Origin: Paracoccaceae bacterium
Lineage (GTDB): Bacteria; Pseudomonadota; Alphaproteobacteria; Rhodobacterales; Rhodobacteraceae
Reading direction: 5' to 3'
Assembly (NCBI GenBank): GCA_020832445.1
Contig: JAFIEO010000086.1
Span: forward strand, 1-55,490
Length of the DNA stretch: 55,490 nt
Part shown: piece by piece, positions 5,095 to 24,305 of the stretch
Position numbering within the stretch: position 1 is the first letter of the stretch
How the letters are laid out: the number at the start of each line of letters is the position of its first letter
Made by a program: the position numbers and the translations under genes
Notes under the pieces: generated by a model
Seen by the model: only the letters and a program-made list of their open reading frames with translations
Told to the model about the DNA's origin: nothing
Database searches by the model: none

Positions 5095-5098
5095 GGGC

Positions 5099-6199: not shown

Positions 6200-6204
6200 C
6201 CGCC

Positions 6205-6993
6205 ATGCTGGACGCGAAAAATATTGATGTCGCACTTGGTGGAAAGCCCGTTTTGCGCAATGCACGGCTGCACGCCAGGGCAGGCAGGCTGACCGTCATC
6301 GTAGGCCCCAACGGATCGGGGAAAACCACGCTTCTGCGCGCTGTCACCGGCGATCTGCCGCATTCCGGTTCGGTGCATCTGAACGGGCAGGACACGCGCA
6401 AGATACCGGCATGGGCGCTTGCGGAAATGCGCGCGGTGCTGCCACAGGCCAGCCAGCTTGCCTTTCCCTTCACTGTGCATGAAGTTGTCCGGCTGGGGCT
6501 GGTGGGAACCACCGCGCTGCGGCCCGACGCCGCCCAATTGCCGACCCGCGCGCTGGAACGGGTGGGGCTGGCAGGCTATGGCGGGCGGTATTTTCAGGAA
6601 CTGTCGGGCGGGGAACAGGCGCGCGCGCAACTGGCCCGCGTGTTGCTGCAAGTCTGGCAACCGGTCGTTGACGGTGTGCCGCGCTGGCTGTTTCTGGACG
6701 AACCTGTTGCGGCACTGGATATTGGCCATCAGCTACAGGTCATGACATTGGCGCGCGAATTTGCACGCGCGGGCGGCGGCGTGGTTGCTGTCATGCACGA
6801 CCTGAACCTGACGGCCATGTTTGCCGATGACATAACGCTGATGCTGGACGGGCAGGTTCTGGCGCAAGGCGGCGTGGCCGATGTGCTGACAGATGCCAAT
6901 TTATCGCGCGCCTATGGCTGCGCTTTACGCGTTTGCGCCCTGCCCCGCGCGAATGAGGCATTTATTCTGCCACAAGCTGCGGAAATCGCCTGA
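6205..6993 (+). CDS. hmuV: Haem ABC transporter ATP-binding protein
   Basis: HmuV is the ATPase that powers haem import through HmuU. The sequence has Walker A (GPNGSGKTTLLRAVTG), the ABC signature (ELSGGEQARAQLARVL) and Walker B (WLFLDEPVAALD), followed by a switch His in VAVMHDLNL. The length of 262 residues is typical. I start at ATG 6205 (MLDAKNIDVALGG); a GTG at 6196, overlapping the hmuU stop as GTGA, is an equally possible start adding three residues. The operon order hmuSTUV is complete here. Confidence 0.92.
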   Translation: MLDAKNIDVALGGKPVLRNARLHARAGRLTVIVGPNGSGKTTLLRAVTGDLPHSGSVHLNGQDTRKIPAWALAEMRAVLPQASQLAFPFTVHEVVRLGLVGTTALRPDAAQLPTRALERVGLAGYGGRYFQELSGGEQARAQLARVLLQVWQPVVDGVPRWLFLDEPVAALDIGHQLQVMTLAREFARAGGGVVAVMHDLNLTAMFADDITLMLDGQVLAQGGVADVLTDANLSRAYGCALRVCALPRANEAFILPQAAEIA

Positions 6994-7082
6994 GTAATCT
7001 TGACTCTTTTAATAAGCATTAGTAACGAGCCGGTCAGAACGCCAGCGGTATCGCCAGCCAGAAAACCACCAAGGGGATACCG
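6994..7082 (+). promoter_or_regulatory. Intergenic leader before the haem receptor
   Basis: The 89-base gap holds an AT-rich patch (about 6997-7024) including TTGACT at 7000-7005, and AAGGGG just before the receptor ATG. A separate promoter for the receptor is likely, possibly iron-controlled. No -10 element is convincing. Confidence 0.35.
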
Positions 7083-9282: not shown

Positions 9283-10107
9283 TCAGCGCATTTGCCGTGC
9301 GACCCCGTGCCATGGCGCTGAAACAATGTCCTGTGCCGATGCCAGACCGCAATCGAACAAGATATCAGACCCGATATTGAACACACGCGTATCAGGGCGC
9401 GTGGCGTCAGACAGCAGCGCCACCGGATTGGGGGTATGAAACCCCTGCGGCCCGCCCCCGATCAGCAAGGGCGCGACCGCCACATGCAAACGCGTCAGCA
9501 AACCCGCCTGAAAAAACCGCGACACGGTAATACCGCCGCCTTCGATCAGCACTGTGTTCAGCCCTGTGCCGTTCAGGGCACGCAGAATATGGCGCGGTGA
9601 CATGCTGCCGTCGGCGCTCGTAGGCAGGCGAATAACCTCTACCCCTTTGGGGCGGGCCGTGTCACCATGCTGCAACACGATGCGCCGCGCGCCGTCATCT
9701 GCAAAAACCTGCGCATCGTTTGGCAGCCGCCCGCGCGGGTCGATCACAACACGCGCGGGATTGTGGCCATCGCACAGGCGCACAGTCAGGCGCGGGCTGT
9801 CATGCAACGCAGTGCGCACCCCGATGACAACCGCATCGCAAATGGCGCGCAGCCGGTGCAGGTGCTTCAACCCGTCCGGCCCCGATATGTCGCGCGCATC
9901 GCCTGCAACCGTGGCCACGCGCCCGTCCAGCGACTGGCCGATCTGGCCAATGGTGACTGGCCCCCTGTCGCGGCGCGCAAGCGGCGCATATATGGCAAGG
10001 GCCGCACGTTCTGCATCACTCCAGTCGCCGCAACAGGGGCAGCCGGTGCCGTTGCATATGCCCAGAATGCGGCGCCAGACGCGGGCGCTGACATCTGCCC
10101 TATCCAT
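9283..10107 (-). CDS. Stand-alone RibD-type reductase (RibD C-terminal/DHFR-like fold)
   Basis: This 274-residue protein matches the NADPH-dependent reductase domain of RibD: IGQSLDGRVAT near the start of the domain, CDAVVIGVRTALHDSPRLTVR, an ARVVIDPRGRLP stretch and a glycine-rich VLIEGGGITVSRFF. It lacks the zinc deaminase domain of bifunctional RibD. The N-terminus carries a small Cys cluster (CNGTGCPCCGD). I start it at ATG 10107, overlapping the previous stop by eight bases with a G-rich Shine-Dalgarno-like run before it; ATG 10125 is an alternative. It is the last gene of a five-gene chain that begins with GTP cyclohydrolase II, so a reduction of a pyrimidine or pterin intermediate is likely. 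The substrate is unknown. Confidence 0.85.
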   Translation of the reverse strand: MDRADVSARVWRRILGICNGTGCPCCGDWSDAERAALAIYAPLARRDRGPVTIGQIGQSLDGRVATVAGDARDISGPDGLKHLHRLRAICDAVVIGVRTALHDSPRLTVRLCDGHNPARVVIDPRGRLPNDAQVFADDGARRIVLQHGDTARPKGVEVIRLPTSADGSMSPRHILRALNGTGLNTVLIEGGGITVSRFFQAGLLTRLHVAVAPLLIGGGPQGFHTPNPVALLSDATRPDTRVFNIGSDILFDCGLASAQDIVSAPWHGVARQMR

Positions 10108-10918
10108 TGCGCCCCCCAACTGCATCAAACCCTTGCGCATCGGGCGGGGCCGGACGACCTGCAGGCATGGCCAGAAGGTCCAGATGGCCGATCGTGCATG
10201 TGCCTTGCGCAATCAGACCCTGACGCGCGCTGTTCCATTCAGGCGCGGCACTATGGCCCGCGCGCGCGGCGGCACCGGCAATTCCATCCAGCAACTGCAC
10301 CTGAAGGGGTGCATCGCACGCGTGCAAAACCCAAGGACTTGGGGCAAGCAAAACATGATAGCCCGCCTGTTCGAACACCGCTTTGGCGACGGCGGCGGCG
10401 TCGGGGCCAAGGGCTGGCCCGAACCCCTTGTCTGTGCATTGGTCGCGGTTGAATGCCGCCGTGATGCCCGCATCATCGGGCAGTTCGGGTTGCCAGTGCA
10501 TAACACCGTCATAAGACAGCACCGCATAAAACGGCAACTGGTGGCGGACCAGAATATCCACAAATGCGCGCAACCAGCGTTCGGATAAAAGATCCAGAAG
10601 CGCAGAGGCCGACACCAGTGTCGCCCCGTCAAGCGGCAGATCTGCAAGGTGGTTCAAGTCAAGCTGGCAGGCTTGCGCATTGGGGTGGTTCGCCACCGCC
10701 AGCGCCAGCAACGCTGCGTCATTGTCCACCAGACGCCAGCGCGCAACATCCGGCACATGCCCGCCCAGCGCACGCAGGCTGGCCCCCGTCCCCGCGCCCA
10801 GATCGACGATGACAGGCGCTGCCCCCGCAAGGCGTGCCGCGCCCGCCAGCAGCCCGTCATCGCGTGCTGCGCGATCTGCGGGTTCACGCAAGGCCAGCCA
10901 TTGCGGCGCAAACCCCAT
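10100..10918 (-). CDS. Class I SAM-dependent methyltransferase
   Basis: The 272-residue protein has a Rossmann-type SAM-binding motif (VIVDLGAGTGASLRALG, about residues 36-52), an acidic second motif (WRLVDNDAALL) and a later LVSASALLDLLSERW segment resembling motif IV of small-molecule methyltransferases. No export signal or membrane segment is seen, so it acts in the cytoplasm. It lies between the PTPS-like gene (3-base gap) and the RibD-type reductase (8-base overlap). The setting suggests methylation of the GTP-derived product of this cluster, but the acceptor cannot be read from the sequence. Confidence 0.85.
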   Translation of the reverse strand: MGFAPQWLALREPADRAARDDGLLAGAARLAGAAPVIVDLGAGTGASLRALGGHVPDVARWRLVDNDAALLALAVANHPNAQACQLDLNHLADLPLDGATLVSASALLDLLSERWLRAFVDILVRHQLPFYAVLSYDGVMHWQPELPDDAGITAAFNRDQCTDKGFGPALGPDAAAVAKAVFEQAGYHVLLAPSPWVLHACDAPLQVQLLDGIAGAAARAGHSAAPEWNSARQGLIAQGTCTIGHLDLLAMPAGRPAPPDAQGFDAVGGRNG

Positions 10919-10921
10919 GGA

Positions 10922-11317
10922 TTACACCTCTGCCTCGAACCAGGCGCGGGCCATGTGGCTTTCATGCAGCGTAATCCGCAACCGCCGCACGCGGCCTGCA
11001 TCCTTCAGCGTGCCCGCGGTGATATGGGCGCGCATCTGGTCAAAGATATGTTTGCACAGAAATTCGGTCGTCGTGAATTTCCCCGAAAATTCGGGAATTT
11101 CATCAAGGTTCTTGTAACGCAGCGGTTGCAGGGTTTCAGCCAGCGCATCAACGGCCAGCCCGATATCGACCACCAGACCATGCGCGTCCAGATCGTCGGT
11201 GAAAAACGCGGCATCCACGATGAATGTCGCGCCATGCATGCCTTGCGCTGGGCCAAACACGGCCGAGGGCAGCGAATGGGCAATCATGATATGATCTTTG
11301 ACTTCGACGGCGAACAT
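10922..11317 (-). CDS. Divergent 6-pyruvoyl-tetrahydropterin/6-carboxytetrahydropterin synthase-family protein
   Basis: QueD/PTPS enzymes rearrange dihydroneopterin triphosphate using zinc bound by three His and a catalytic Cys. This 131-residue protein has the family outline: MIAHSLP with His14, MHGATF with His28, a VVDIG stretch, TTEFLCKHIF and a late LHESHMARAW. The usual HGH pair reads HGA (Ala30 replaces the third zinc His). The residue four before His28, normally the catalytic Cys, is Ala24. It may therefore bind metal differently, catalyse another step, or act as a binding protein. Its place beside ribA-type, RibD-type and methyltransferase genes supports a pterin-like substrate. Classical queuosine synthesis is unlikely because no other que gene is here. 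Confidence 0.8.
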   Translation of the reverse strand: MFAVEVKDHIMIAHSLPSAVFGPAQGMHGATFIVDAAFFTDDLDAHGLVVDIGLAVDALAETLQPLRYKNLDEIPEFSGKFTTTEFLCKHIFDQMRAHITAGTLKDAGRVRRLRITLHESHMARAWFEAEV

Positions 11318-11332
11318 GGGCGTCCTTTCTGT

Positions 11333-12283
11333 TCAATCATAGCGAATGCGGTGACACAACGTGTCCGGCGCATTCAGAATACGGGGGTAATCATCCGGCA
11401 GGTCGTCAAAGGCACTTTCGCCTGAAATCAGCACATCCAGCCGGTCATCGCACAAAAGCGCCAGTGCCTTGTCCATACGGCGGCGAAAATTCCAGCGCGG
11501 CGCGCGCGCGGGCGGCAAGGCCCCCACCTGCGAACTGACCAACCGCAGGCGCTGGCTGTGAAATGCCGCCCCCAAGGGCAGCGCAACCATATCCTCACCG
11601 TGCCAGCTGGCCTCGACCACTGTGGCACCCATGCCTGCAATATCCAACGCCTGCACCAGCCCCTTCGCGGACGCACTGGTATTGATGACGACATCCTGCC
11701 CTTGCGGCAGATCCTGCGGCGCGGCAAAATCGCACCCCAGCGCATGCGCCAACGTGGCGCGGGCGGGGTCAATGTCGCATAAGGTCACTTCGCATCCCGG
11801 ATGACGCGCGCACAGGTAGCCCACCAGCGCACCCAGCACCCCCGCTCCGATGACGCTGACCTTGTCACCCGCCGAAAGCCCGCTGTCCCAAATGATATTC
11901 AGCGCGGTTTCCATATTTGCCGCCAGCACCGCACGCGCGGGCGGCAGGGTATCAGGCAGGGGGGAATATCCGTCTTGCGGCAGGCAAAACCATGTCTGGT
12001 GCGGAAACAACGCAAAGACCGGCTGCCCCGCTTGCGCGCCATCCGCGATTTCCGCGACCACGCAATACCCGTATTTGACCGGATAGGGAAAATCCCCTTC
12101 CTGATGGGGGGCCCGCATGCGCGTGTGTTCGCCCACGGGCACAGCCCCGCGCAAGACCAGCCGTTCGGTCCCGCGGCTGATGCCCGAATACAGGCTGCGC
12201 AGCCGGACCCCCTGCCCTGCACTGGCGGGCCTCATTTCTGCACGGTTCGGGGCCACAACCCATAAGGCGCGCGGGTCGGTCAT
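11333..12283 (-). CDS. MDR-superfamily (zinc-type alcohol dehydrogenase-like) oxidoreductase without classical zinc ligands
   Basis: This 316-residue medium-chain dehydrogenase-like protein has an N-terminal GroES-like part with SLYSGISRGTERLVLRG and VKYGYCVVAEI, and a nucleotide-binding core with DKVSVIGAGVLGALVGYLCARH (about 140-160). The Cys that normally binds catalytic zinc is absent from the SGISRGTE segment and the GHE motif is replaced, so it is probably zinc-free. The SGIS-GTE pattern recalls BchC-type dehydrogenases. Its start overlaps the GTP cyclohydrolase II stop by four bases. It probably oxidises or reduces a hydroxyl or double bond in the cluster's product. Confidence 0.82.
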   Translation of the reverse strand: MTDPRALWVVAPNRAEMRPASAGQGVRLRSLYSGISRGTERLVLRGAVPVGEHTRMRAPHQEGDFPYPVKYGYCVVAEIADGAQAGQPVFALFPHQTWFCLPQDGYSPLPDTLPPARAVLAANMETALNIIWDSGLSAGDKVSVIGAGVLGALVGYLCARHPGCEVTLCDIDPARATLAHALGCDFAAPQDLPQGQDVVINTSASAKGLVQALDIAGMGATVVEASWHGEDMVALPLGAAFHSQRLRLVSSQVGALPPARAPRWNFRRRMDKALALLCDDRLDVLISGESAFDDLPDDYPRILNAPDTLCHRIRYD

Positions 12284-13416
12284 GACAGGATATGCCCGGA
12301 TTTCAGCGCTTTGGTCGCCAGATAATGCGCGTTTTGCTGTGTCTGCCCGACCTGAAGCGGCACACGTTCCACAACATCAATCCCGTGGCTTGCCAGAATA
12401 CGCATCTTGGCGGGGTTGTTTGTCAGCAAACGCACCCGCCTGATGCCCAATGCTGACAGAACCGTGGCCCCCACTCGAAAATCACGCTCGTCATCTTCAA
12501 AGCCAAGCTGGTGGTTGGCCTGTACGGTATCAAGGCCCGCATCCTGCAAGGCATAGGCGCGCATTTTGTTGGCCAGCCCGATGCCGCGCCCTTCCTGATT
12601 AAGATAGATCAGCACGCCGCCCCCCGCCTGCCCCATCGCGGCAAGTGCGGCCTGCAACTGCGGGCCGCAATCGCATTTCAGACTGCCCAGAACGTCGCCT
12701 GTGAAACACGCCGAATGCAAGCGCGCCAGAACCGGCTGTTCGGGTGCTATGGTGCCCACTGTAATGGCATAATGTTCAGCCCCGCCATTGTCGGGGCGAA
12801 ACACATTCACACGCCCCGCAGCCGAGCACACCATCGGCAAGGCCGCCGAACTGACCGCGCCGAAACCGCGTTCGCTGGACAGTTCATCCAGCACATCACG
12901 CGCGGGCAGATACGCCAGCCCCTGACGCAACAACGTGTCGCGTGCAGCCGCTGGAATACGCCACAACAGCATCGCGGGCAAAAGCTGGGCGGCCTTGGCC
13001 AGTGCCATTGCAGCGTCAGGCAGCGGGTCGGGGCAGTCCACCTGCACTGTGCCCGCGGGCAGCAGGCTTGCCGCAACATCCGCACCGCCTGCAATCTGGC
13101 GCATCATATCCAAGGGTGTGGCGGCAGGCAGGGCCAGCGTGCACACCCGTCGCGTGGCCTGTTGCGCGTCAGGCAATAGCGCGGCGAACCGCCTGCCCGA
13201 CAAAACCAGTTGTGGCACCCCGAACGCCGCAAGCTGTGCAAACCGGCCTTGCCGCAATGTCTCGGCCGGTGCGACAATAGCCATATCAGCGCCGCGACCG
13301 ATCAGCACGGGCAGGCCAAGACGGGTATCGCAGACCAGCCGCGCGACACGTTCACCAAGGTCAACGCCAAGGCTTGGCGCCGTTATGGCCGTCGGGAGTG
13401 CAATAGGAAACGTCAC
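12280..13416 (-). CDS. ribA: GTP cyclohydrolase II with N-terminal extension
   Basis: GTP cyclohydrolase II opens the imidazole ring of GTP to give a diaminopyrimidine, releasing formate and pyrophosphate. The C-terminal half has all expected motifs: the zinc cysteines in RLHSACFTGDVLGSLKCDCG, the catalytic region YLNQEGRGIGLANKM and the end RLLTNNPAKMRILASHGI. About 170 residues precede it, beyond the roughly 200-residue single-domain enzyme; this part has no clear catalytic motif and may be a degenerate domain. The start is uncertain. Candidates are GTG 13416, GTG 13425 or ATG 13527, none with a strong ribosome site. It heads a five-gene chain, so it may feed a special product rather than riboflavin. 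Confidence 0.85.
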   Translation of the reverse strand: MTFPIALPTAITAPSLGVDLGERVARLVCDTRLGLPVLIGRGADMAIVAPAETLRQGRFAQLAAFGVPQLVLSGRRFAALLPDAQQATRRVCTLALPAATPLDMMRQIAGGADVAASLLPAGTVQVDCPDPLPDAAMALAKAAQLLPAMLLWRIPAAARDTLLRQGLAYLPARDVLDELSSERGFGAVSSAALPMVCSAAGRVNVFRPDNGGAEHYAITVGTIAPEQPVLARLHSACFTGDVLGSLKCDCGPQLQAALAAMGQAGGGVLIYLNQEGRGIGLANKMRAYALQDAGLDTVQANHQLGFEDDERDFRVGATVLSALGIRRVRLLTNNPAKMRILASHGIDVVERVPLQVGQTQQNAHYLATKALKSGHILS

Positions 13417-13612: not shown

Positions 13613-14347
13613 ATGTCTTTGCGCGTTGCATTGGGACTGTGTCGGTCGGTGTTGATTTACTTCAACCCGATGATGATGCGGCGGACCAGACAGCTTTATG
13701 ACGGAATCTTGAACAGCGGTGATCTGGTCTTTGATGTGGGCGCGCATGTCGGCACGCGCGCACGGGCCATGCGCCGCTGCGGCGCAAGGGTGGTTGCATT
13801 TGAACCGCAACCCGCATTTGCGCGCTTCTTGCGCCACACCCTGCCGCGCGATATCGTGCTTGTGGAAGCGGCCCTTGGCCCCTCAGAAATGCGCGCCGAA
13901 ATGTCTGTGTCATTGCGTCACCCGACAGTGTCATCGCTGCGCGCCAGCCTGCCGGATGAAGCCCGCACCATGCCCGGTTTCGAGCATGTGAAATGGGATG
14001 CCCGCGCAGATGTGGCCATGACATCGCTGGACCGGATGATCGCGCAGCACGGCCTGCCGCGCTACATCAAGATCGATGTCGAAGGGTTCGAGACAGAGGT
14101 TCTGTCCGGCCTGTCCCACCCCGTTCCGTTGATTTCTGTAGAATATCTGCCGGGCCTGCCGGATGTCAGCAGCCGCGCGATCAGCATGATCGCAGATCTG
14201 GGGGTGTATGAATTCAACGTGGTGCGCGGTGAAAATGCCGCTTTCGAATGGGCGGCATGGCGCGATCTGGCGGGCATGCAGGCGTGGCTGGACGCGCTGG
14301 CACCTGATGCGGGGTCGGGCGATGTATACGCGCGGCTGCGCGGTTGA
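13613..14347 (+). CDS. FkbM-family methyltransferase
   Basis: FkbM-family enzymes methylate hydroxyl groups of sugars or polyketides. The 244-residue protein shows the SAM-binding region DLVFDVGAHVGTRARAMRRCGA (about 41-62), VVAFEPQPAFARFL, and the family-typical C-terminal YIKIDVEGFETEVLSGL. I place the start at ATG 13613 (MSLRVALGLC) with an AGG about ten bases upstream; the in-frame extension to 13526 overlaps the ribA upstream region and is not conserved-looking. It is transcribed away from ribA and towards the IMPase gene. Its place near glycan genes suggests methylation of a glycan, but the target is unknown. Confidence 0.83.
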   Translation: MSLRVALGLCRSVLIYFNPMMMRRTRQLYDGILNSGDLVFDVGAHVGTRARAMRRCGARVVAFEPQPAFARFLRHTLPRDIVLVEAALGPSEMRAEMSVSLRHPTVSSLRASLPDEARTMPGFEHVKWDARADVAMTSLDRMIAQHGLPRYIKIDVEGFETEVLSGLSHPVPLISVEYLPGLPDVSSRAISMIADLGVYEFNVVRGENAAFEWAAWRDLAGMQAWLDALAPDAGSGDVYARLRG

Positions 14348-14407: not shown

Positions 14408-15244
14408 CTACTTGCCAGTATTGCGCAGAACTGCTGCAAACGGGTCAAATAACGGCGTGCAGGCGGTCAGTACTGTGCCAGTGTCTTCTGGGCGCTCGGA
14501 CTTGTCCAACGCTTCAACCCGCAAACCCGCTTCGCGCAGCAACACAAGACCTGCTGCAATGTCCCATGGCTGCAACCGCCGTTCCCAGAACCCGTCCAGC
14601 CTCCCGCAGGCCACATAGGCCAGATCAAGCGCCGCAGCCCCCATCCGGCGCACGCCCGCACAATGCGGCATCAGGCGCGCTATGTCGGCTGCGTGGTCAT
14701 CAATATGGGCCATCTGCCCGAAGGGTATGCCGGTTCCGAACAGGGCATCTTGCATGCGCTGTGTCTGTGCCGCGCGAATTGCATCGCCATTCAGGTAGGC
14801 ACCGGCCCCGCGCAGCGCATAAAAGGTCTCATTGCGCACCGGATCATGCACCACCCCCAGAACGCGAACCCCGTCTACCTGCAAGGCAACCGAAATCGCC
14901 CAATGGCCGATCCCGCGCAGGAAATTCGTGGTCCCGTCCAGCGGATCGACAATCCATTGGCGCGACGCGGGCGCGCGGGTGTGCTCGGTGCTGCGCGTCT
15001 CCTCTCCCAACCAGTCATCGGTGGGCTTGCACAACGCGTCGCGCAACATGGCTTCGGTGCGCAGATCTGCCGCGCTGACAAAATCGCCCGCACGCTTTTC
15101 TTCGACGTTCAATGTGTCACGCGCCGACCAGAATTCCAGCAGACCCTTGCCAGCGCGGATAACTTCTGACACGACATCCGCAAGGGTGTCCCCGTGGGGA
15201 CAGTCATGCAGATGCGGTGGCATAAATGCAGGTTTCTGTGTCAT
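14408..15244 (-). CDS. Inositol monophosphatase-family phosphatase
   Basis: Members hydrolyse inositol phosphate, histidinol phosphate or 3',5'-bisphosphonucleotides with Mg2+ or Li+-sensitive metal sites. The 278-residue protein has motif 1 (WIVDPLDGTTNFLRGIGHW, with the metal-binding DxxDGT) and motif 2 (LQPWDIAAGLVLLREAG), plus GEETRS as the first metal ligand region. It is the last gene of a chain with CDP-alcohol phosphatidyltransferase, sulfatase-fold and flippase-like genes, each overlapping by ATGA or GTGA. This suggests work on an inositol- or sugar-phosphate headgroup, but the family is too broad to fix the substrate. Confidence 0.88.
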   Translation of the reverse strand: MTQKPAFMPPHLHDCPHGDTLADVVSEVIRAGKGLLEFWSARDTLNVEEKRAGDFVSAADLRTEAMLRDALCKPTDDWLGEETRSTEHTRAPASRQWIVDPLDGTTNFLRGIGHWAISVALQVDGVRVLGVVHDPVRNETFYALRGAGAYLNGDAIRAAQTQRMQDALFGTGIPFGQMAHIDDHAADIARLMPHCAGVRRMGAAALDLAYVACGRLDGFWERRLQPWDIAAGLVLLREAGLRVEALDKSERPEDTGTVLTACTPLFDPFAAVLRNTGK

Positions 15245-16143
15245 TTCCTGTCGCTTTCAGTCGCGTGGGCGGGCCGATGCCCCAGACCAAGCTGCACCGC
15301 CCAGGGCAGAATGGCAAGCAGCGCAGCCCCAAGGGCGGCCAGACCAAAGCTGATGCTGGCGGCCACGGCCTGCGGTCCGGCCACCCCCACAAGGGGCCAA
15401 AGCAGCAGCGCCGCCCCTTCGCGCAAACCCCACCCGTTGACAGAAACAGGCAGCAACATCGCAAGCAAAGTCAGCGGAATGACGAACAACGCCGCCCCAA
15501 GACCAAGCTGCACGCCCACCGCCTGCGCCGCCGCCCACACACCGCCAAGATTGCAGCAAAGGATCACCGCAGTATAGCCCAGTTGCCACAGCGCGAACTG
15601 CGGCGCAAACCACGCCGCCGCAACCGCACGGCGCACCGCATCCGGCAGAAAGCGCACCCCGCCCCATATCAGCGCGACTGTCACAGCCACACCCAATGAA
15701 ATGACCGGCACCGCCGCAGCGCCCAGCTGTGTCAGCGCCCACCACCCCACGCCCAACATGGCGGCACATGCCAGCGCCACCTGCCCCGCAAGCCGTTCGA
15801 TAACAACCGATCCGACGGCCAGCCGCCAGCCGCCATGGGCGCGCATCCGCGCCACGCGCCCCACATCACCCAGAACGCCGCCGGGCAAAACTGTGTTGCC
15901 CAACACCGACAAATGATATTCGCATATGGCCCAAAGGGTGGGCAGGCGCACGCCAAGGGCCTGCGCGGTCACCTGCCAGCGCAGCGCCGACACCACCACC
16001 TGCACACCCAGAACCGCCACGGCCAGCGCCATCCATCGCATGTCGGCGCCGCGCAGATGCGGGCCAAGGGTCGCGGGGTCCACAAGCCAGATTACCGCGC
16101 CCAATGCCGCCAGCGACGCCAGCAGCCGCAAAACCCATGTCAT
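15241..16143 (-). CDS. Flippase-like integral membrane protein (YbhN/AglD/LPG-synthase TM family)
   Basis: The 300-residue protein is almost wholly hydrophobic, with about eight predicted membrane helices. It follows the UPF0104/lysylphosphatidylglycerol-synthase transmembrane-domain pattern: LSVLGNTVLPGGVLGDVGRVARM near residues 95-115 and VNGWGLREGAALLLW near 255-270. There is no soluble aminoacyl-transferase domain, so it is not a full MprF. Such proteins are thought to move lipid-linked intermediates or to serve in glycolipid synthesis. It overlaps the sulfatase-fold gene and the IMPase gene by four bases each. Confidence 0.8.
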   Translation of the reverse strand: MTWVLRLLASLAALGAVIWLVDPATLGPHLRGADMRWMALAVAVLGVQVVVSALRWQVTAQALGVRLPTLWAICEYHLSVLGNTVLPGGVLGDVGRVARMRAHGGWRLAVGSVVIERLAGQVALACAAMLGVGWWALTQLGAAAVPVISLGVAVTVALIWGGVRFLPDAVRRAVAAAWFAPQFALWQLGYTAVILCCNLGGVWAAAQAVGVQLGLGAALFVIPLTLLAMLLPVSVNGWGLREGAALLLWPLVGVAGPQAVAASISFGLAALGAALLAILPWAVQLGLGHRPAHATESDRK

Positions 16144-17762
16144 GGGGTGGCCCCGCTGCCAAGGCGCGAAAGCAGGGCATCGCGCATGCCGTCCATGCGT
16201 ATGGACGGCGTCGCGGGCGAGGGGATCATGCCTTCGGTCCAGTCCAGATCGGCGAAGCGGTCCACCAGATCGGCGGGGCCGATCACATGGACAGGCACGT
16301 CAAACCCATCCACCCCTGACACGAAACGCGCGGGTTCGTGGTCCCCAAGCACAACCATCAGCGGCGGGTCACCCGCATGGCGTGCAGCCCATGCCCCCAC
16401 CGATTGCAGGCTGTAATCCACCGCCTGCCGGAATTGGTCGCGCACACGGTTATGGTCGCGCCAGACCACTTCTGGCGGGTCGCCGGACAATGCCCATTGG
16501 TCAAATATCGTGCCGGTGCCAATGTCGTCCCAATCCACCAGTTCGGGAATGGGCACCCAGGGTGCGTGCGACGACACCAGCGCCACCTGCACCACAAGCG
16601 GCGTGCGGTCGGGATCATCGCGCTCCAGCCGGTCGAGTGCGTGCAGGGTGAACTGGTCGGGCATGGTCGCCCAGTTGAACGGTTGCCCCTCATAGCCCAG
16701 ATCGGCGGCATTATAGATCGCGTCAAATCCGAAATAATCCCCTTCCGGCCATGGAAAGACATGCGCGGGCTTAATGGCGACCGTGCGACGGCCTGCATCC
16801 TGCGCATAGTGAAACAGTGTCCGGCGCGGGCTGGCAATCAGCGCACGGTAGCGCGCCTGCGTGTCCAGCCACATGCCCGATGCGACACTGCCATGCGCAA
16901 GCCAGCTTTGGCCACCAACCATAGGGGCACGCGCCCAGCCCGACCGCATGGCCAGACCACGCGCGGCCAGATCCCCCTCAATAGTTTGCAGGGTCGCGGT
17001 ATGTGTCGGAATATAAAGCGGGTTTTCAAAACTGGACCGGCCATAGCTTTCGACATAGACCAGAACAAAATCACGCGTGCCCAACCTGTCGAACAAAGGC
17101 GCTACATCGCGCATACTGTCTTGTTGCGCGGCGGTCCTGAACCTTGCCAGATCCGCGCGCGTGGTGCGAATTTGTTCCACACGTTCCAGTCCGACGCGCG
17201 CGGTAAAGGCCGCCCCCGGAATTGCGTTTGACACAGCAGGCGGCAGGAACCATGCCCGCCGCGCCTGACCAATTTCCGCCACCGCGATTGCGGTTGCCGG
17301 AACCAACAGCAGCGCGGCTATCGCGCGCGGGCGCGCAGCAGACGTCAGGCTGGAAAACACCCCTGTTGCCCACCACAGCGCAAGCGCCAGCAGGGCCACC
17401 AGCACCACGGCCCCGCCCAGCGCGAGTGCAGCCATCGCCAGCCCGATACTGCCGCGCGCCAAGTCCCACGCCGCAGGCAAAAGGTTGTAATCAGCAACAA
17501 GGTTGAAGCCACGGTTAAACGCGATGAACGTGCCGAAATCCGCCAGTTTCAACAGCGCAATCACCACCATCGCCACGACCAGCACAACCCGCAACACAAG
17601 CCCGCCCCTGCCCGCGCCCATCGCAACAAGTGCCGCGACAATCACCGGCAATTCTAACGGAAACAGGCCAAGCGCGCCCCATGTCATGGCAGCGGGGTGG
17701 TTTGGCTGGATCAACACCAGATACAGAAGGCCAAGCGCCAGAGCTGTGCGCAGGTAATTCAC
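16140..17762 (-). CDS. Sulfatase-fold membrane enzyme (LTA synthase/OpgB-like headgroup transferase)
   Basis: This 540-residue protein has about four to five N-terminal membrane helices (to about residue 165) followed by a periplasmic alkaline-phosphatase/sulfatase-fold domain. Likely metal and catalytic residues are Glu238 (VLVYVESYGRSS), Ser286 as nucleophile (APMVGGQSWLAHG), His399 (LVSSHAPW) and Asp474-His475 (MVVLGDHEPARF). Relatives include lipoteichoic acid synthase and OpgB, which move phosphoglycerol from phosphatidylglycerol to an acceptor. The start is a GTG (17762) overlapping the previous stop as GTGA; the upstream in-frame extension lies inside the other gene. The nearby opgG/opgH genes make periplasmic glucan a good candidate acceptor. 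That is inference. Confidence 0.8.
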   Translation of the reverse strand: MNYLRTALALGLLYLVLIQPNHPAAMTWGALGLFPLELPVIVAALVAMGAGRGGLVLRVVLVVAMVVIALLKLADFGTFIAFNRGFNLVADYNLLPAAWDLARGSIGLAMAALALGGAVVLVALLALALWWATGVFSSLTSAARPRAIAALLLVPATAIAVAEIGQARRAWFLPPAVSNAIPGAAFTARVGLERVEQIRTTRADLARFRTAAQQDSMRDVAPLFDRLGTRDFVLVYVESYGRSSFENPLYIPTHTATLQTIEGDLAARGLAMRSGWARAPMVGGQSWLAHGSVASGMWLDTQARYRALIASPRRTLFHYAQDAGRRTVAIKPAHVFPWPEGDYFGFDAIYNAADLGYEGQPFNWATMPDQFTLHALDRLERDDPDRTPLVVQVALVSSHAPWVPIPELVDWDDIGTGTIFDQWALSGDPPEVVWRDHNRVRDQFRQAVDYSLQSVGAWAARHAGDPPLMVVLGDHEPARFVSGVDGFDVPVHVIGPADLVDRFADLDWTEGMIPSPATPSIRMDGMRDALLSRLGSGATP

Positions 17763-18556
17763 GCTGTTTGTCCACGACGCGCCAGCAGCGCGCGAATATC
17801 TGTTGTGAAGGACCACAGCACCACCATCAACACAACACCGCCCAGCACCGCCGAGGCAGGGGGCACCAGCACCGGCGCCAGTAATGCGACCTGCGCACCC
17901 ATCTGCGCGCCCGCGACAATGCGGCGCCGTTGTGCGGGGGGCAGCGGCGCGCGCAAAACAGGCCAGATAAAAGTCGCCGCCAGAAAGGCAGGGCGCAACA
18001 GCCCAAGCACCAGAAACCAGATGCCAACCTTGCCTGCGGCCACAGCAAGCGCCGCTGTCACGAGTGCGAACGCCACATCCGTTTCCACATCCAGCCGCGC
18101 GCCAAACCTTGACATCAGACCTGTGCGCCGCGCGGCCCACCCATCAACCGCATCCAGCGCAAGAACAACGCCCGCCACCGCGACCAGCGCCCAGCCCATG
18201 CCCTGCGCCAGTTCGTTGGGTGCCGCCAGCAGCCCCGCCATTGCCGCGATTCCGGCGGCTCGCAGTATTGTGATGACATTTGCCCCACCCAGCCGGTCAT
18301 GCGGGAAATAATCCGCCGTTAGACCTGCCATGATGGCAATCGCGCCAGCGGCCCAGATAATACCGGTCAGCGCCGCGCAAAGCAACGCCACGCCCGTGCC
18401 GAACCCCGCATAAATCCCTAACAAATAAGCCCCTGCGACCGCAAATGCGCCCGCGCACATCAAAAGCGCAAGCGCATGCAGTCGCACGCGCGTTATCGGG
18501 CTGGCGGGTTTGGCATAGGATAATTCGACCATACCCGCCGATTTAGCGTTGGACAC
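17759..18556 (-). CDS. CDP-alcohol phosphatidyltransferase
   Basis: These membrane enzymes join a CDP-linked lipid or alcohol to a second alcohol to make a phospholipid. The 265-residue protein has about six to seven hydrophobic helices and the diagnostic motif DxxDGxxAR-x8-GxxxDxxxD, seen as ALDAVDGWAARR and then FGARLDVETD (about residues 134-162). The N-terminus extends about 90 residues with extra membrane helices compared with minimal family members. It is first in a chain with the headgroup-transferase-like, flippase-like and IMPase-like genes, so it may make the donor lipid. The second substrate (glycerol phosphate, inositol phosphate or other) cannot be told from the motif. Confidence 0.88.
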   Translation of the reverse strand: MSNAKSAGMVELSYAKPASPITRVRLHALALLMCAGAFAVAGAYLLGIYAGFGTGVALLCAALTGIIWAAGAIAIMAGLTADYFPHDRLGGANVITILRAAGIAAMAGLLAAPNELAQGMGWALVAVAGVVLALDAVDGWAARRTGLMSRFGARLDVETDVAFALVTAALAVAAGKVGIWFLVLGLLRPAFLAATFIWPVLRAPLPPAQRRRIVAGAQMGAQVALLAPVLVPPASAVLGGVVLMVVLWSFTTDIRALLARRGQTA

Positions 18557-18668: not shown

Positions 18669-19235
18669 GTGATGATCGCCAGCCAGAAACACCTGCCCCG
18701 TTATGCGCCAATGACACGCTTTTTGCATTGGATCGTCGCGCTGATGGTGATTGCCACATTCCCCATAGGCGTCGTCATGCTGCAAGACGGGCTTACCCGT
18801 CCGACGCAGGATTTGCTGTTTATACTGCACAAGAATGGCGGCGTGATTATCCTGTTGCTGGTTGTCCTGCGGCTGGTCTGGCGCTTGCGCATGGCCGCAC
18901 CGCCGATGCCTGAGCGTGTGTCTGCGCTGCAAGCCCGACTGGCGCGCGCCGCGCATTGGGCGCTTTATGTGTTGCTGCTGGTCATGACTGTCAGCGGCTA
19001 TGTCCGCGTGCGTGCAGGCGGCTTTCCCATCGAGATGCTGGATGCGCTGGGCATCCCGACTCTGGTGCCCCGATCAGACAGTCTGGCGGAATATGCGCAG
19101 TTTGTGCATGGCAATGCGCGTTTTGCGCTGGCGTTGCTGATCGTGGGGCATGCGGGCGCGGGGCTGGTTCATCTGATACGCCGTGACGGGGTGTTCAAGC
19201 GCATCTGGCCGCCACTAGGCCAAGGGCCGCAATGA
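18669..19235 (+). CDS. Cytochrome b561-family diheme membrane protein
   Basis: The 188-residue protein has four membrane helices and His residues placed as in bacterial cytochrome b561: FLHWIVALMV (helix 1), FILHKNGGVIILLLVV (helix 2), AAHWALYVLLLV (helix 3) and NARFALALLIVGHAGAGLVHL (helix 4). These would bind two b-type haems and pass electrons from quinol or to a periplasmic acceptor such as superoxide. It overlaps opgH by four bases (ATGA), so it is probably the first gene of the glucan operon, an unusual partner. A second start codon (ATG 18672) lies directly after the first. Confidence 0.88.
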   Translation: MMIASQKHLPRYAPMTRFLHWIVALMVIATFPIGVVMLQDGLTRPTQDLLFILHKNGGVIILLLVVLRLVWRLRMAAPPMPERVSALQARLARAAHWALYVLLLVMTVSGYVRVRAGGFPIEMLDALGIPTLVPRSDSLAEYAQFVHGNARFALALLIVGHAGAGLVHLIRRDGVFKRIWPPLGQGPQ

Positions 19236-21691
19236 TGCTGACACCTGCGCGGCGATTGCATGTGCTGGCCAGCCTTGGCCTTGCGGGTGCGCTTGTCGCA
19301 ATGCTATGGCACGGGCTGGACATGGCTGCCACACATCCCGCACTGGCAGCGGTGGTTCTTGTGCTGTTTGCGGCCAATGCCCTGTGGCTGTCGGCTGCAG
19401 CGGTCGCGGCCCTTATTGGCCTGTGGACCATGCAGTCCCCCCCTGCGCGCCGCGAATTGCCCCGACCACCCGCACCCATGCAACGCTGCGCGATTTTGTG
19501 GCTGGTCTGTGGCGAGCCGCCCGAACCTATGGCCCAGCGGATCAAGGCCCTGCTGGACGGGTTGGACCGCAGCGGGCAATCACAGTCCTGCACGGTTTTT
19601 GTGCTGTCAGACACCCAGGGCGCGCAAGCGCTGGCGCGCGAAGCCGCCGCACTCGCCCCGCTGAAAAACCGCATCATCTGGCGCAACCGCACCGCCCCCG
19701 AAGGCCGCAAACCCGGAAACCTGCATGACTGGCTGATAGATCACGGCGATGCGTTCGACACGATGCTGGTTCTGGATGCAGACAGCAGCTTTGACGCCGC
19801 GCGACTGGCAGACATGCGGTCCATGATGGCGCAAGATGCGCAGTTGGGGCTTGTGCAGGCGGCAATCCGGCTGCGACCGGGCGACAGCCGGATTGCTGCC
19901 ATGCAGCGGCTGTCCGCGCGCCTGTGCGGGCCGGTTTTTGTGCATGCTCTCGCCCGGCTAAGTGGCGATGCGGGCAATTACTGGGGCCATAACGCACTGT
20001 TGCGTGTTGCGGCCTTCGCGCAGGTGTCACAACTGGCACCCCTTAGCGGCCCTGCGCCCTTTGGTGGCCCCGTCCTAAGCCATGATTTCATCGAGGCTGC
20101 ACTTATGCGTGCCGCCGGATGGCGGGTGCGCATTGCGCCCGATGCGCGCGGCTCGCTCGAGGATGCGCCCGAAACGGTGTCCGGCCATCTGCGTCGCGAC
20201 CGGCGCTGGGCACAGGGCAATTTGCAACACCTGCGCCTGATTGGCAGGCGGGGCCTGCACCCTGCCAGCCGCCTGCATTTGCTGGCGGGTATTCATTCCT
20301 ACCTGTCCGCGCCAATCTGGCTGGCACTGGTTTTGCTGATGGGGTCAGGGGCGGTGCATGCCAGCGCGCAGGCAATTTGGTCGCTGCTGGGCGCATTGGT
20401 GCTGTTGGTGGTGCCAAAATTCGCGGGGGTGGCCGCACATCGCAGAACCATGCGCCACGCCGCCAGCCGCAGGATTTTATGGCGTGCGCTGGTGGCAGAA
20501 CTGTGGCTGACAACACTGTTTGCACCCATCGGGATGATACGGCGCAGCGGTTTCGTGCTGTCCGTGCTGGCAGGCAAGGATGCAGGCTGGAACCCGTCTG
20601 GGCAGGTGGTCCGGCGCGCGGGTTTCACGGGCCGCGGGGAACAGATTTCAGCGGTTGGCATCCTGATAGCCGTGATCACGCCGCAAATGTTGATCGGCAC
20701 CAGCGCAACGGCACTGCTGTCGGCGGCCATGGTCATGCCGGTCGTGGCCCCGCTGCTGGCGGCACACTGGCTGATACGCTGGCTTGATGACAGCACGACC
20801 CACGACCCCGTCGCGCGCTATTACGACGCCAGCACAACGCGCTTTCTGGCCGTGGGCGGCAGTGGCGCGGCACTGGCCATTCACCGCCCGCTATGGGCAG
20901 ACGGGATCACCAGCACCGAAGCCGCCGCCGCACATGCCAATGATCTAATTGCCAACGCCGCCCTGTCCGCGCTGGGGCGCACGCCCGAACGCGTCTGCGA
21001 TCTGGGCTGCGGGGTGGGTGGCAGCCTGTTTCATCTGGCACGGCTCTGGCCGAACGCCCAGATGGCCGGCATCACCCTAAGCGCCACACAGGTGCAACTG
21101 GCGCGCATGCATGCCCGCGCGCGCGGGCTTTCGCAGCAATGCACCTTTGTGCAATCCGATTTCACGCTGCCCACAACCCTGCCGCGCGCCGATCTGGTGC
21201 TGGCAATTGAAAGCCATGTCCACACTGACAGTGCCAGCCGGTTTCTGGAAGCGGCGCGCGCGCATCTGGCCCCCGGCGGTATTCTGGTGGTGGTTGATGA
21301 TATGCTGGCGCGCACCGATGATCACCTGTCGCCGCGTGAACGCGCCTTGGTGCGCACCTTCGCGCGGGGCTGGCGTTTGGGCCATGTAACGCCCCGCCGC
21401 ACATTTGTTACGCGCGCGCAGGCGCTGGGGTATGATGCGCTGGCCGAGCATGACCTGAACCCCATGTTGCGGCTGGACCGCAAGCGCGACCATGCGCTGC
21501 GGCTGGCGGGGCCGGTTGCAGACTGGCTGGGCCTGACACGCTTTGCGGTTTTTGCCAATATGGTGGGCGGTAATGCCCTGACCCAGGCCTACCGCGCGGG
21601 CATCATGAGCTACAGCATGGTCGTCTTGCGCGCCCCTGATGCTGCACAAACCGGACCGGACCGCCAGACGCGGCGACAGGTGGCCGCATGA
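19232..21691 (+). CDS. opgH: OpgH-type glucan glucosyltransferase fused to a C-terminal SAM methyltransferase
   Basis: OpgH (MdoH) is the inner-membrane GT2 enzyme that makes the beta-glucan backbone of osmoregulated periplasmic glucans from UDP-glucose. Residues 1-520 show two N-terminal helices (about 10-65), a catalytic domain with VLDADSSF (DxD at 182-184), a HDFIEAALMRAAGW acid motif (284-297), RRDRRWAQGN (321-330), and further helices (about 350-515). Residues about 525-805 form a separate class I methyltransferase: RYYDAS entry, VCDLGCGVGGSLF (588-600), QSDFTLP and LAPGGILVVVDD. The reading frame is open throughout, with no stop or frameshift at the join. Total length is 819 residues. 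The methyltransferase target is unknown. It overlaps cytochrome b561 and opgG genes by four bases each. Confidence 0.85.
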   Translation: MMLTPARRLHVLASLGLAGALVAMLWHGLDMAATHPALAAVVLVLFAANALWLSAAAVAALIGLWTMQSPPARRELPRPPAPMQRCAILWLVCGEPPEPMAQRIKALLDGLDRSGQSQSCTVFVLSDTQGAQALAREAAALAPLKNRIIWRNRTAPEGRKPGNLHDWLIDHGDAFDTMLVLDADSSFDAARLADMRSMMAQDAQLGLVQAAIRLRPGDSRIAAMQRLSARLCGPVFVHALARLSGDAGNYWGHNALLRVAAFAQVSQLAPLSGPAPFGGPVLSHDFIEAALMRAAGWRVRIAPDARGSLEDAPETVSGHLRRDRRWAQGNLQHLRLIGRRGLHPASRLHLLAGIHSYLSAPIWLALVLLMGSGAVHASAQAIWSLLGALVLLVVPKFAGVAAHRRTMRHAASRRILWRALVAELWLTTLFAPIGMIRRSGFVLSVLAGKDAGWNPSGQVVRRAGFTGRGEQISAVGILIAVITPQMLIGTSATALLSAAMVMPVVAPLLAAHWLIRWLDDSTTHDPVARYYDASTTRFLAVGGSGAALAIHRPLWADGITSTEAAAAHANDLIANAALSALGRTPERVCDLGCGVGGSLFHLARLWPNAQMAGITLSATQVQLARMHARARGLSQQCTFVQSDFTLPTTLPRADLVLAIESHVHTDSASRFLEAARAHLAPGGILVVVDDMLARTDDHLSPRERALVRTFARGWRLGHVTPRRTFVTRAQALGYDALAEHDLNPMLRLDRKRDHALRLAGPVADWLGLTRFAVFANMVGGNALTQAYRAGIMSYSMVVLRAPDAAQTGPDRQTRRQVAA

Positions 21692-23241
21692 ACAGACGCC
21701 ACTTTCTGAACGGGGCTTGCGCGGCAGCACTGGCGCCGATGTGGCGGCCCCGCCGCGCGCAGGCAGACACCGCCCTGCACAGCCCGCAGGCCATGATTGA
21801 TGCCGCCCGCCACCTTGCCGCGCGGCCCTATGCCCCGCGCCCGCAAGTGCTGAACGCACCGTTTGACGGGCTGAGTTATGACAGCTATCGCGGCATTCGC
21901 CCCCGCACGGGTTCCACGGCAGATCTGGGGCTTGGGCCGCATTTCATGGCAGACCTGCTGCCGCCGGGCTGGCTGTTTCGCGATCCCGTCAGCATTACCC
22001 TGGCAGCGCATGACACCGAATTTTCGGCGCAGCTTTTCGACTATGATCCGCGCTATTTCACCCCGCACCCTACGGCGGGCAAACTGCCGGATATGGGGTT
22101 TTCCGGCCTGCGCCTGCGCCATCAGCTAAACCGCAAGGGCAGTTGGGATGAAGTTATCGTCTTGCAAGGGGCCAGCTATTTCCGCGCATTGGCCAAGGGC
22201 ACGGTTTATGGCCTGTCAGCGCGCGCGCTGTCCCTTGGCACCGGTGGCCCCACACCAGAGGAATTTCCCGTCACGCGCCATATCACAGTGTTTGACAGTG
22301 ACGCGCGCCTGCACTTCGGCTGCCTTATTGACAGCCCGCGCTGTGCAGGCGCGCTGATCGCCACGCTGGACCCCGGCGAAACCACGACGATGGACTGCAC
22401 ATTGCATCTGTTTGCCCGCACCCCCATCGAGGATGCGGGCATCGCCCCGCTGACATCAATGTTCCAGCACAATGATCTTGGCCCCGCAGCGATTGATGAT
22501 TTTCGTCCCGCGGTGCATGACAGCGACGTGCTGGTGATTGACAATGGCGCGGGCGAACGGCTGTGGCGGCCATTGGCAAACCCTGCACAGGTGCAGGTAT
22601 CCGCTTTCACAGACAAATCGCCGCGCGGGTTCGGATTGGTGCAAATGCCAACAGCGTTCAGCGATTTCCGTGATCAGGAAGGGGCGTATCACCGCCGCCC
22701 TTCAGCATGGGTGACACCGCAGGGCGATTGGGGCGCGGGGGCCGTCATGCTGCTGGAAATCCCCACCCCGAACGAATTTGCCGACAATATCGTTGCGTTC
22801 TGGCGCCCTGCTGCGGCGCTGGGTGCGGGCGCGCATCGCTTTTCCTACAGGCTGGACTGGGGTGCCCCCGGCCCTGCATCCCTGCCCGTGCGGGAGTATC
22901 CGCTTTTGCCCTTGCGCAATGCATCGGGGATTGAACCCAATCTGGCCAAGGGGCGGTTGTTCGTGATTGATTTCACACCTGCCCGCGACGGGGCACAGCC
23001 GGTCGATGCCGCGCAGGTCCAGCTTGATTTCGGGGCAGATGATGCAGCAAACCATGTGACAGGGGCTGCATTTTACCGCTTGCGCGATGATGCGGGCGCT
23101 TGGCGGGCAAGTTTTGTCTTTACGCCCCCGCCCGATCTGGACGTGGCCGAATTGCGCCTGCGCCTGCGCCTGCCATCCGGCGCGCTGCTGGCCCCTGTCT
23201 GGCTATACCGCTGGACCCGCAGCCGCGAGGGGGGGGTATGA
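21688..23241 (+). CDS. opgG: Periplasmic glucan biosynthesis protein OpgG/OpgD (MdoG family)
   Basis: OpgG-family proteins act in the periplasm on the nascent glucan chain to give its branched or cyclic final form. The 517-residue length is typical. The N-terminus MNRRHFLNGACAAAL has a twin-Arg motif, so export by Tat is likely, as for OpgD. Family features include the FDGLSYDSYRGIR segment near residue 55, GSWDEVIVLQGASYFRALAKG, YGLSARALSLGTG and AWVTPQGDWGAGAVMLLEIPT. It is translationally coupled to opgH upstream and to a GT4 gene downstream (ATGA overlaps). Whether to call it opgG or opgD depends on phylogeny. Confidence 0.92.
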   Translation: MNRRHFLNGACAAALAPMWRPRRAQADTALHSPQAMIDAARHLAARPYAPRPQVLNAPFDGLSYDSYRGIRPRTGSTADLGLGPHFMADLLPPGWLFRDPVSITLAAHDTEFSAQLFDYDPRYFTPHPTAGKLPDMGFSGLRLRHQLNRKGSWDEVIVLQGASYFRALAKGTVYGLSARALSLGTGGPTPEEFPVTRHITVFDSDARLHFGCLIDSPRCAGALIATLDPGETTTMDCTLHLFARTPIEDAGIAPLTSMFQHNDLGPAAIDDFRPAVHDSDVLVIDNGAGERLWRPLANPAQVQVSAFTDKSPRGFGLVQMPTAFSDFRDQEGAYHRRPSAWVTPQGDWGAGAVMLLEIPTPNEFADNIVAFWRPAAALGAGAHRFSYRLDWGAPGPASLPVREYPLLPLRNASGIEPNLAKGRLFVIDFTPARDGAQPVDAAQVQLDFGADDAANHVTGAAFYRLRDDAGAWRASFVFTPPPDLDVAELRLRLRLPSGALLAPVWLYRWTRSREGGV

Positions 23242-24305
23242 CCGGCACAGGCATATATCCGGAAATCGCCTTTGCGGTGCCCGGCGACATCATGATGCGA
23301 AGTGGTGGCACATATTACGACCGCCGCGTGATTGAGGCCTTGCGCGCGCTTGGCCATCCGGTGCGTCATGTGGCCCTGCCTGCCGGTTGGCCTGCGCCAG
23401 ATGCCGCGTGCAAAGGCGCGACACTTGCACAGCTGCATGACCTGCCAGACATGATGCCAGTGATCATTGACGGGCTGACATTTGGCGCAATGGCCACCCG
23501 CGACGCTGCCCGCCTGAACCGGCCCGTGATTGTGATGTTGCATCACCCGCTTGGGCTGGAAACCGGACTGACCGCAGATCGCGCCGCAGAATTGATCGCG
23601 CGCGAAGCCGCGAACCTGCGCCATGCCAATCATGTCATTGTGCCATCGTCGCATGTAGCCACGCTGTTGCAAGACCGGTTCAAGGTATCACGCACGCGCA
23701 TCACTGTAGCGCCCCCCGGTTTCGACCGCACGGAACAGGCCCCACCCCTGCCGCGCATGGTCCCGCCACTTATCCTGAGTGTCGGTCTGATCTGCACGCG
23801 CAAAGGGCATGATGTGCTGCTGCGCGCACTTGGCCAGATCGCGGATATGGACTGGCAATCTGTCATCGTGGGCATGGCGCAGGACCCCGCGTATCTGCAA
23901 CAGCTTGAAGGGATACGCCGCGATCTGAAACTACAAGACCGCGTTCTGCTGGCGGGAGAGTTGTCTTCAGCGGCGCTGTCACAATACTATCGGTCGGCCC
24001 ATATCTTTGCACTGGCCACACGGTATGAAGGCTATGGCATGGTGCTGGGTGAAGCCCAGCTTCATGGCCTGCCCAGCGTAAGCTGCGCGACCGGCGCCGT
24101 TACAGAAACGATGCGCGGCGCGGGTCTGCTGGTCGCACCCGACAGTCATGATGATTTTGCGCAGGCGTTGCGCAAACTGTTGTCAGACAGCGCGCTTTAT
24201 GACGCGCTGTCGCGCAAAAGCCAACTGGCGGGGGCATCCTTGCCAGGCTGGCAGGACACGGCACACATATTCCGGCAGGTCATTGCCAGATGCGTGACAC
24301 ACTGA
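23238..24305 (+). CDS. GT4-type glycosyltransferase
   Basis: The 355-residue protein has a GT-B fold layout. The N-terminal half shows AFAVPGDIMMRSGGTYYDRRVIEALRALGH. The C-terminal donor-binding half has LSVGLICTRKGHDVLLRAL, FALATRYEGYGMVLGEAQLHGLPSV (the EGYG-x3-E catalytic/donor motif) and a GLLVAPDS end. It probably transfers a sugar in the cytoplasm from a nucleotide sugar. It follows opgG with an ATGA overlap and ends the operon, so it may add a sugar to the glucan, to its lipid donor, or to a related envelope glycan. I start it at ATG 23238, since the longer frame lies within opgG. Confidence 0.88.
   Translation: MTGTGIYPEIAFAVPGDIMMRSGGTYYDRRVIEALRALGHPVRHVALPAGWPAPDAACKGATLAQLHDLPDMMPVIIDGLTFGAMATRDAARLNRPVIVMLHHPLGLETGLTADRAAELIAREAANLRHANHVIVPSSHVATLLQDRFKVSRTRITVAPPGFDRTEQAPPLPRMVPPLILSVGLICTRKGHDVLLRALGQIADMDWQSVIVGMAQDPAYLQQLEGIRRDLKLQDRVLLAGELSSAALSQYYRSAHIFALATRYEGYGMVLGEAQLHGLPSVSCATGAVTETMRGAGLLVAPDSHDDFAQALRKLLSDSALYDALSRKSQLAGASLPGWQDTAHIFRQVIARCVTH

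Follow-up and report, generated by a model that had tools for sequence, protein, structure and literature searches.

A conserved PTPS-IV gene cluster that probably turns GTP into a methylated, glycosylated, pterin-like envelope compound

We analysed a 55,490-nucleotide stretch of DNA from a Paracoccaceae bacterium (assembly GCA_020832445.1, contig JAFIEO010000086.1; hereafter the window) and found that five of its genes form the core of a wider conserved cluster, whose probable product is a pterin-like cell-envelope compound made from guanosine triphosphate (GTP) and carrying methyl and sugar groups. The core genes encode GTP cyclohydrolase II (GCH II), an MDR dehydrogenase, a PTPS-IV protein, a class I S-adenosylmethionine (SAM) methyltransferase and a stand-alone RibD_C reductase, and we confirmed that they lie in one compact, left-running chain, as a preliminary description of this DNA had reported. 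Read from the sequence, the GCH II and MDR genes overlap by 4 bases, gaps of 15 and 3 bases separate the PTPS gene from the MDR and methyltransferase genes, respectively, and the methyltransferase and RibD genes overlap by 8 bases if the latter starts at the ATG at 10107. The same description had limited the unit to these five genes (9283–13416). We found it to be wider: the conserved cluster extends to 24305 and also includes a gene for a GT4 glycosyltransferase, in many cases joined by genes for a CDP-alcohol phosphatidyltransferase, a flippase-like protein, a sulfatase-like protein and a phosphatase.

The gene order was checked in three sets of loci and is widely conserved. One set of 26 loci was chosen by the MDR profile alone (E ≤ 1e-60), which matched 27 of 398 evenly drawn Pseudomonadota genomes, the genome of the window being the remaining match. 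Another set was found with PTPS peptides (80 of 224 matching places) and is hence biased towards PTPS; 26 of its 80 loci are shorter than full length, so that absences partly reflect contig ends. The remaining eight came from plasmid records (75 with an MDR match, 40 listed) of Streptomyces, Microbacterium, Thiodictyon, Agrobacterium, Methylosinus, Palleronia and Haloarcula (two loci); many other plasmid records match the MDR protein at below 30% identity and may carry different MDR enzymes. The MDR gene lies directly upstream of the PTPS gene, with the same orientation, in all 26 MDR-chosen loci, all 8 plasmid loci and 62 of the 80 PTPS-chosen loci; thus, this adjacency is not due to chance. 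In the loci examined, the MDR family occurs only with PTPS-IV. Among the 26 MDR-chosen loci, PTPS is found in 26, GT4 in 25, the methyltransferase in 24, RibD (PF01872 type) in 22 and GCH II (PF00925 type) in 11, together with CDP-alcohol phosphatidyltransferase (12), flippase-like (11), OpgH (10), OpgG (5), sulfatase-like (3), FkbM (8), cytochrome b561 (7), creatininase (6) and phosphatase (1) genes. The 80 PTPS-chosen loci contain PTPS in 80, the methyltransferase in 79, MDR in 77, RibD in 76, GT4 in 48 and GCH II in 37, along with CDP-alcohol phosphatidyltransferase (43), sulfatase-like (38), flippase-like (37), OpgH (24), OpgG (6), phosphatase (59), FkbM (51), cytochrome b561 (26) and creatininase (0) genes, and the plasmid loci contain GCH II in three, CDP-alcohol phosphatidyltransferase in six and a creatininase-family gene in two.

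These clusters reach Streptomyces, Microbacterium and Haloarcula and so span Pseudomonadota, Actinomycetota and haloarchaea. Closer to the window, 11 of 40 relatives have a match to the PTPS-like protein; ten of these belong to the genus, for which 24 members were included, and one lies outside it. In six of the 26 MDR-chosen loci, all from two genera, the GT4 glycosyltransferase and the methyltransferase are fused as one protein, which suggests that they act on one molecule. Mirror-distance correlations among the five core proteins ranged from 0.59 to 0.77 over 44–55 loci, part of which could be explained by shared species history. The MDR, PTPS and methyltransferase proteins of the gammaproteobacterium Pseudohaliea are closest to those of the alphaproteobacterium Palleronia, as if these genes had moved together. 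Three loci on contigs labelled Aquiluna or Micrococcales (L073, L078 and L081) resemble Rhodobacteraceae loci, reflecting either transfer or mis-binning.

The Haloarcula pelagica locus runs from CDP-alcohol phosphatidyltransferase through GTP cyclohydrolase IIa (GCH IIa), MDR and PTPS to the methyltransferase. GCH IIa thus takes the slot of GCH II, which supports ring-opened GTP as the precursor and is the strongest sign of a pathway starting from GTP. GCH IIa is named under the match in three of six Haloarcula records; it was not seen in the Haloarcula marismortui stretch, where a creatininase-family gene lies about 6 kb away. This family includes FAPy formamidases, according to the accessible part of PMC9478397, and we counted its genes, near 6 of 26 MDR-chosen and 2 of 8 plasmid loci, in favour of the pathway proposed below. 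The best solved relatives of the RibD_C profile, 6p8c and 2azn, are reductases of the 2,5-diamino-6-ribosylaminopyrimidinone 5'-phosphate type, and the domain search reported no deaminase domain in the window protein, which resembles the archaeal-type reductase that acts on the GCH II product. Another contig of the same genome (C83) carries a second GCH II copy, which shares 50% identity with that of the window across 364 columns. A RibBA-like protein is encoded on a further contig (C79; L004, 829–1956); in its GCH II half, the PF00925 match is broken into two pieces and the sequence appears degenerate on inspection, and the C83 protein is therefore probably the working GCH II.

The PTPS-like protein cannot be read as an ordinary PTPS, because the catalytic residues of QueD are replaced. 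In an alignment with Escherichia coli QueD chains, the window protein has Gln in place of the Cys, Ala in place of the second HGH histidine and Arg-Tyr in place of Asp-His, positions that we take to be the catalytic Cys (CxxxHGH), the HGH motif and the Asp-His pair of QueD. The HGH motif was found in none of 115 loci. The window protein instead carries the FGPAQ signature, as do those of 80 of 80 PTPS-chosen, 26 of 26 MDR-chosen and 6 of 8 plasmid loci, the exceptions being the two from Haloarcula. One Haloarcula homologue (L109, 13055–13429) keeps an HxH pair without FGPAQ and is possibly an intermediate form. The closest solved chain is SCO6650 (3d7j; 208 bits to the profile). Many related proteins are named 6-carboxytetrahydropterin synthase (queuosine) in the records, and this naming is wrong.

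We tentatively propose a dedicated pathway in which GTP is converted through a ribitylaminopyrimidine to a pterin-like head that is methylated, glycosylated and probably lipid-linked. GCH II (GCH IIa in H. pelagica) would open GTP, and the stand-alone RibD_C protein would reduce the ribosyl to a ribityl chain, like archaeal ArfC. The MDR dehydrogenase, which among proteins of known structure is most like alcohol and polyol dehydrogenases (among the best 60 of 130 matches), probably oxidises the side chain; its own domain match is weak (24.1 bits against a cut-off of 31.8). PTPS-IV has kept a T-fold pocket but not the chemistry of QueD; it probably binds the ring and assists in closing or remodelling it to the pterin-like head. 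The methyltransferase, a weak domain match (23.7 bits, cut-off 27) with a confident AlphaFold model (pLDDT 94.1; best Foldseek match 3mgg, E 7.2e-12), would methylate the head. The GT4 protein, for which a PDB sequence search returned one sugar-transferase chain, would attach a sugar. In about half of the loci, the CDP-alcohol phosphatidyltransferase could link the head to a lipid: the family motif DxxDGxxARx8GxxxDxxxD is intact in the window and in all 61 loci that carry the gene (43 of 43, 12 of 12 and 6 of 6), and the homologue L105 matches PF01066 at 62.4 bits. Finally, the flippase-like and sulfatase-like proteins may move and trim the product at the outer face; PDB sequence searches with the phosphatidyltransferase and the sulfatase-like protein gave no match. 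The preliminary description had proposed a reduced, methylated pterin- or pyrimidine-type product. Its GTP-derived pathway is supported, and we infer the individual reactions and the product from gene families, order and conservation. A GTP-derived, methylated and glycosylated compound is likely, the head group is fairly supported, and lipid anchoring is a reasoned guess.

Several observations weigh against this proposal. GCH II, which had been described as a member of the cluster and is one in the window, is not part of it in most loci. RibD_C is missing in 4 of 80, 4 of 26 and 3 of 8 loci. The creatininases pass none of the NCBIfam cut-offs and resemble MftE more than ArfB, and the methyltransferase fold search returned just general class I enzymes, a fold too general to name a substrate. 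The phosphatidyltransferase gene is outside the stretch examined in 37 of 80 and 14 of 26 loci, and the flippase-like gene in 43 of 80 and 15 of 26 (some of these being contig-end cuts); lipid linkage may therefore not be general.

The pathway could also end in a glycosylated pterin or pyrimidine that is soluble or secreted, comparable to the pterin glucosides of cyanobacteria; the lipid-type genes would then belong to other envelope functions encoded nearby. The MDR-chosen loci lean this way, as 25 of 26 have GT4 and 24 the methyltransferase, whereas 12 have the phosphatidyltransferase. That gene, however, is found again at loci of Streptomyces, Microbacterium, Thiodictyon, Agrobacterium and Haloarcula, which are too distant for idle synteny, and we consider a soluble product possible but doubtful. 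A substituent of an osmoregulated periplasmic glucan is improbable. OpgH is near the core in 10 of 26 MDR-chosen loci, divergently beside MDR in eight of these, and is also found in Methylosinus; in the window, opgH–opgG abut the cluster. Within the genus, however, OpgG is present in 8 of 10 genomes with the cluster and 9 of 14 without it, one cluster genome that is 99% complete (G007) lacks OpgG, and neither OpgH nor OpgG was seen in the Streptomyces or Haloarcula loci examined. As OpgG does not track the cluster, we rejected the glucan as a strict partner. A link to phototrophy was likewise rejected: 20 of the 24 genomes of the genus carry Photo_RC, and it does not separate those with the cluster (9 of 10) from those without (11 of 14).

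Going by family names alone, the genes could be extra or substitute copies for making riboflavin, queuosine, folate or F420, and PMC5041015, in its accessible part, ascribes an F420 role to PTPS-IV from unpublished work. We regard this explanation as very improbable. The genome of the window has another GCH II, another RibD and two RibH copies, so the cluster genes are not the only copies for riboflavin. QueC had no match in this genome (12 of 14 controls match), making a queuosine role unlikely, as does the replacement of the QueD residues. cofG was above its cut-off in none of 35 cluster genomes (of 37 known, from groups other than Streptomyces and Haloarcula), with sub-threshold matches in 15, including a fragmentary one of 166 bits in G238; an F420 role is thus unlikely. 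The folate-type ExxHGH motif was not seen in the PTPS protein, FolE and FolB not being part of the search. Together, the separate copies, the absence of QueC and the conserved order support the earlier suggestion of a GTP-derived pathway other than riboflavin or queuosine, and for neither pathway did we find that the cluster supplies the only gene copies or that its order is not conserved. An unlikely extension of the proposed pathway is that bacteria and haloarchaea produce a lipid-anchored, glycosylated, GTP-derived pterin-like head, which might have redox activity and, by way of cytochrome b561, a connection to the quinone pool; the redox function is speculation from the neighbouring cytochrome b561 alone.

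Table 1 Genes of the cluster in the window
Feature	Position	Strand	Evidence
RibD_C reductase, stand-alone	9283..10107	-	PF01872, 124 bits
Class I SAM methyltransferase	10100..10918	-	Methyltransf_25 (weak), AlphaFold/Foldseek
PTPS-IV protein (FGPAQ)	10922..11317	-	PF01242, 73 bits (cut-off 22.4)
MDR dehydrogenase	11333..12283	-	ADH_zinc_N (weak)
GCH II, N-terminal extension	12280..13416	-	PF00925, 200.1 bits; TIGR00505, 225.6 bits (cut-off 205.85)
FkbM-family methyltransferase, accessory	13613..14347	+	PF05050, 52.8 bits
Inositol-monophosphatase-family phosphatase, accessory	14408..15244	-	PF00459, 184.8 bits
Flippase-like membrane protein (LPG_synthase_TM)	15241..16143	-	PF03706, 108.7 bits
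Sulfatase/alkaline-phosphatase-superfamily membrane enzyme	16140..17762 (start GTG 17762 proposed)	-	PF00884, 29.6 bits (cut-off 25)
CDP-alcohol phosphatidyltransferase	17759..18532	-	tblastn of homologues; cluster profile, 213 bits; motif
Cytochrome b561	18669..19235	+	PF01292, 90.4 bits
OpgH/MdoH-type glucan synthase, cluster association not settled	19232..21691	+	NF003962, 420.8 bits (cut-off 328)
OpgG/MdoG, cluster association not settled	21688..23241	+	PF04349, 442.4 bits
GT4 glycosyltransferase, cluster family	23238..24305	+	PF13692, 91.4 bits; cluster profile, 410 bits

Past one opposite FkbM gene, the strand of the core resumes with the phosphatase, flippase-like, sulfatase-like and phosphatidyltransferase genes, linked by 4-base overlaps, and the cytochrome b561, OpgH-type, OpgG and GT4 genes diverge from this run (Table 1). 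The OpgH-type synthase has an extra C-terminal SAM methyltransferase domain in the same frame (Methyltransf_25, 588–683). A gamma-glutamyltranspeptidase gene (24336–25865) adjoins the GT4 gene, and haem uptake genes lie beside the core chain (3215–9185), encoding a HemS/ChuX-type protein and, judged by eye, an ABC transporter as well as a TonB receptor.

The cluster would represent a widespread pathway, in Pseudomonadota, Actinomycetota and haloarchaea, without a known product, and the proposal would give a function to PTPS-IV, to its MDR family and to many misnamed proteins. If the product is lipid-linked, it would be a previously unknown kind of envelope molecule; if the redox-active, lipid-anchored version is true, it would be a new class of membrane cofactor. 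In the literature searched, which covered few subscription papers, we found neither an established function for PTPS-IV (COG0720) nor an account of the cluster beyond its head, including the glycosyl- and lipid-type genes, the exchange of GCH II for GCH IIa and a test of the F420 role.

Among the closest known systems is the PTPS-IV subfamily, whose PTPS-IV/GCH II/RibD head is already noticed in the accessible part of PMC5445326. There, the subfamily is defined by FGPAQ and comprises 561 sequences, with PF00925 and PF01872 neighbours in the neighbourhood network; the window has the same signature and neighbours. The GT4, methyltransferase, MDR and CDP-alcohol phosphatidyltransferase genes of the window are not mentioned in the accessible parts of PMC5445326 and PMC5041015, where the unpublished F420 link, which our cofG result does not support, is the one product given. 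The best solved relative, SCO6650 from Streptomyces coelicolor, is labelled uncharacterized in the PDB and differs in species and context. It is said to lack zinc, the catalytic triad and PTPS activity. The archaeal ArfA–ArfB–ArfC entry to riboflavin and F420 resembles the cluster in GTP opening, a stand-alone RibD_C and sometimes a creatininase-family gene, but the cluster has no deaminase, RibH or RibE and finishes with enzymes of methyl, glycosyl and lipid type. Toxoflavin-type clusters also combine GCH II, RibD-type and SAM methyltransferase genes; we know of none with PTPS-IV, MDR, GT4 or a CDP-alcohol phosphatidyltransferase. In logic only, the cluster recalls phosphatidylinositol mannoside synthesis, with which it shares a CDP-alcohol phosphatidyltransferase, a phosphatase and GT4, but it has GTP-derived enzymes in place of inositol.

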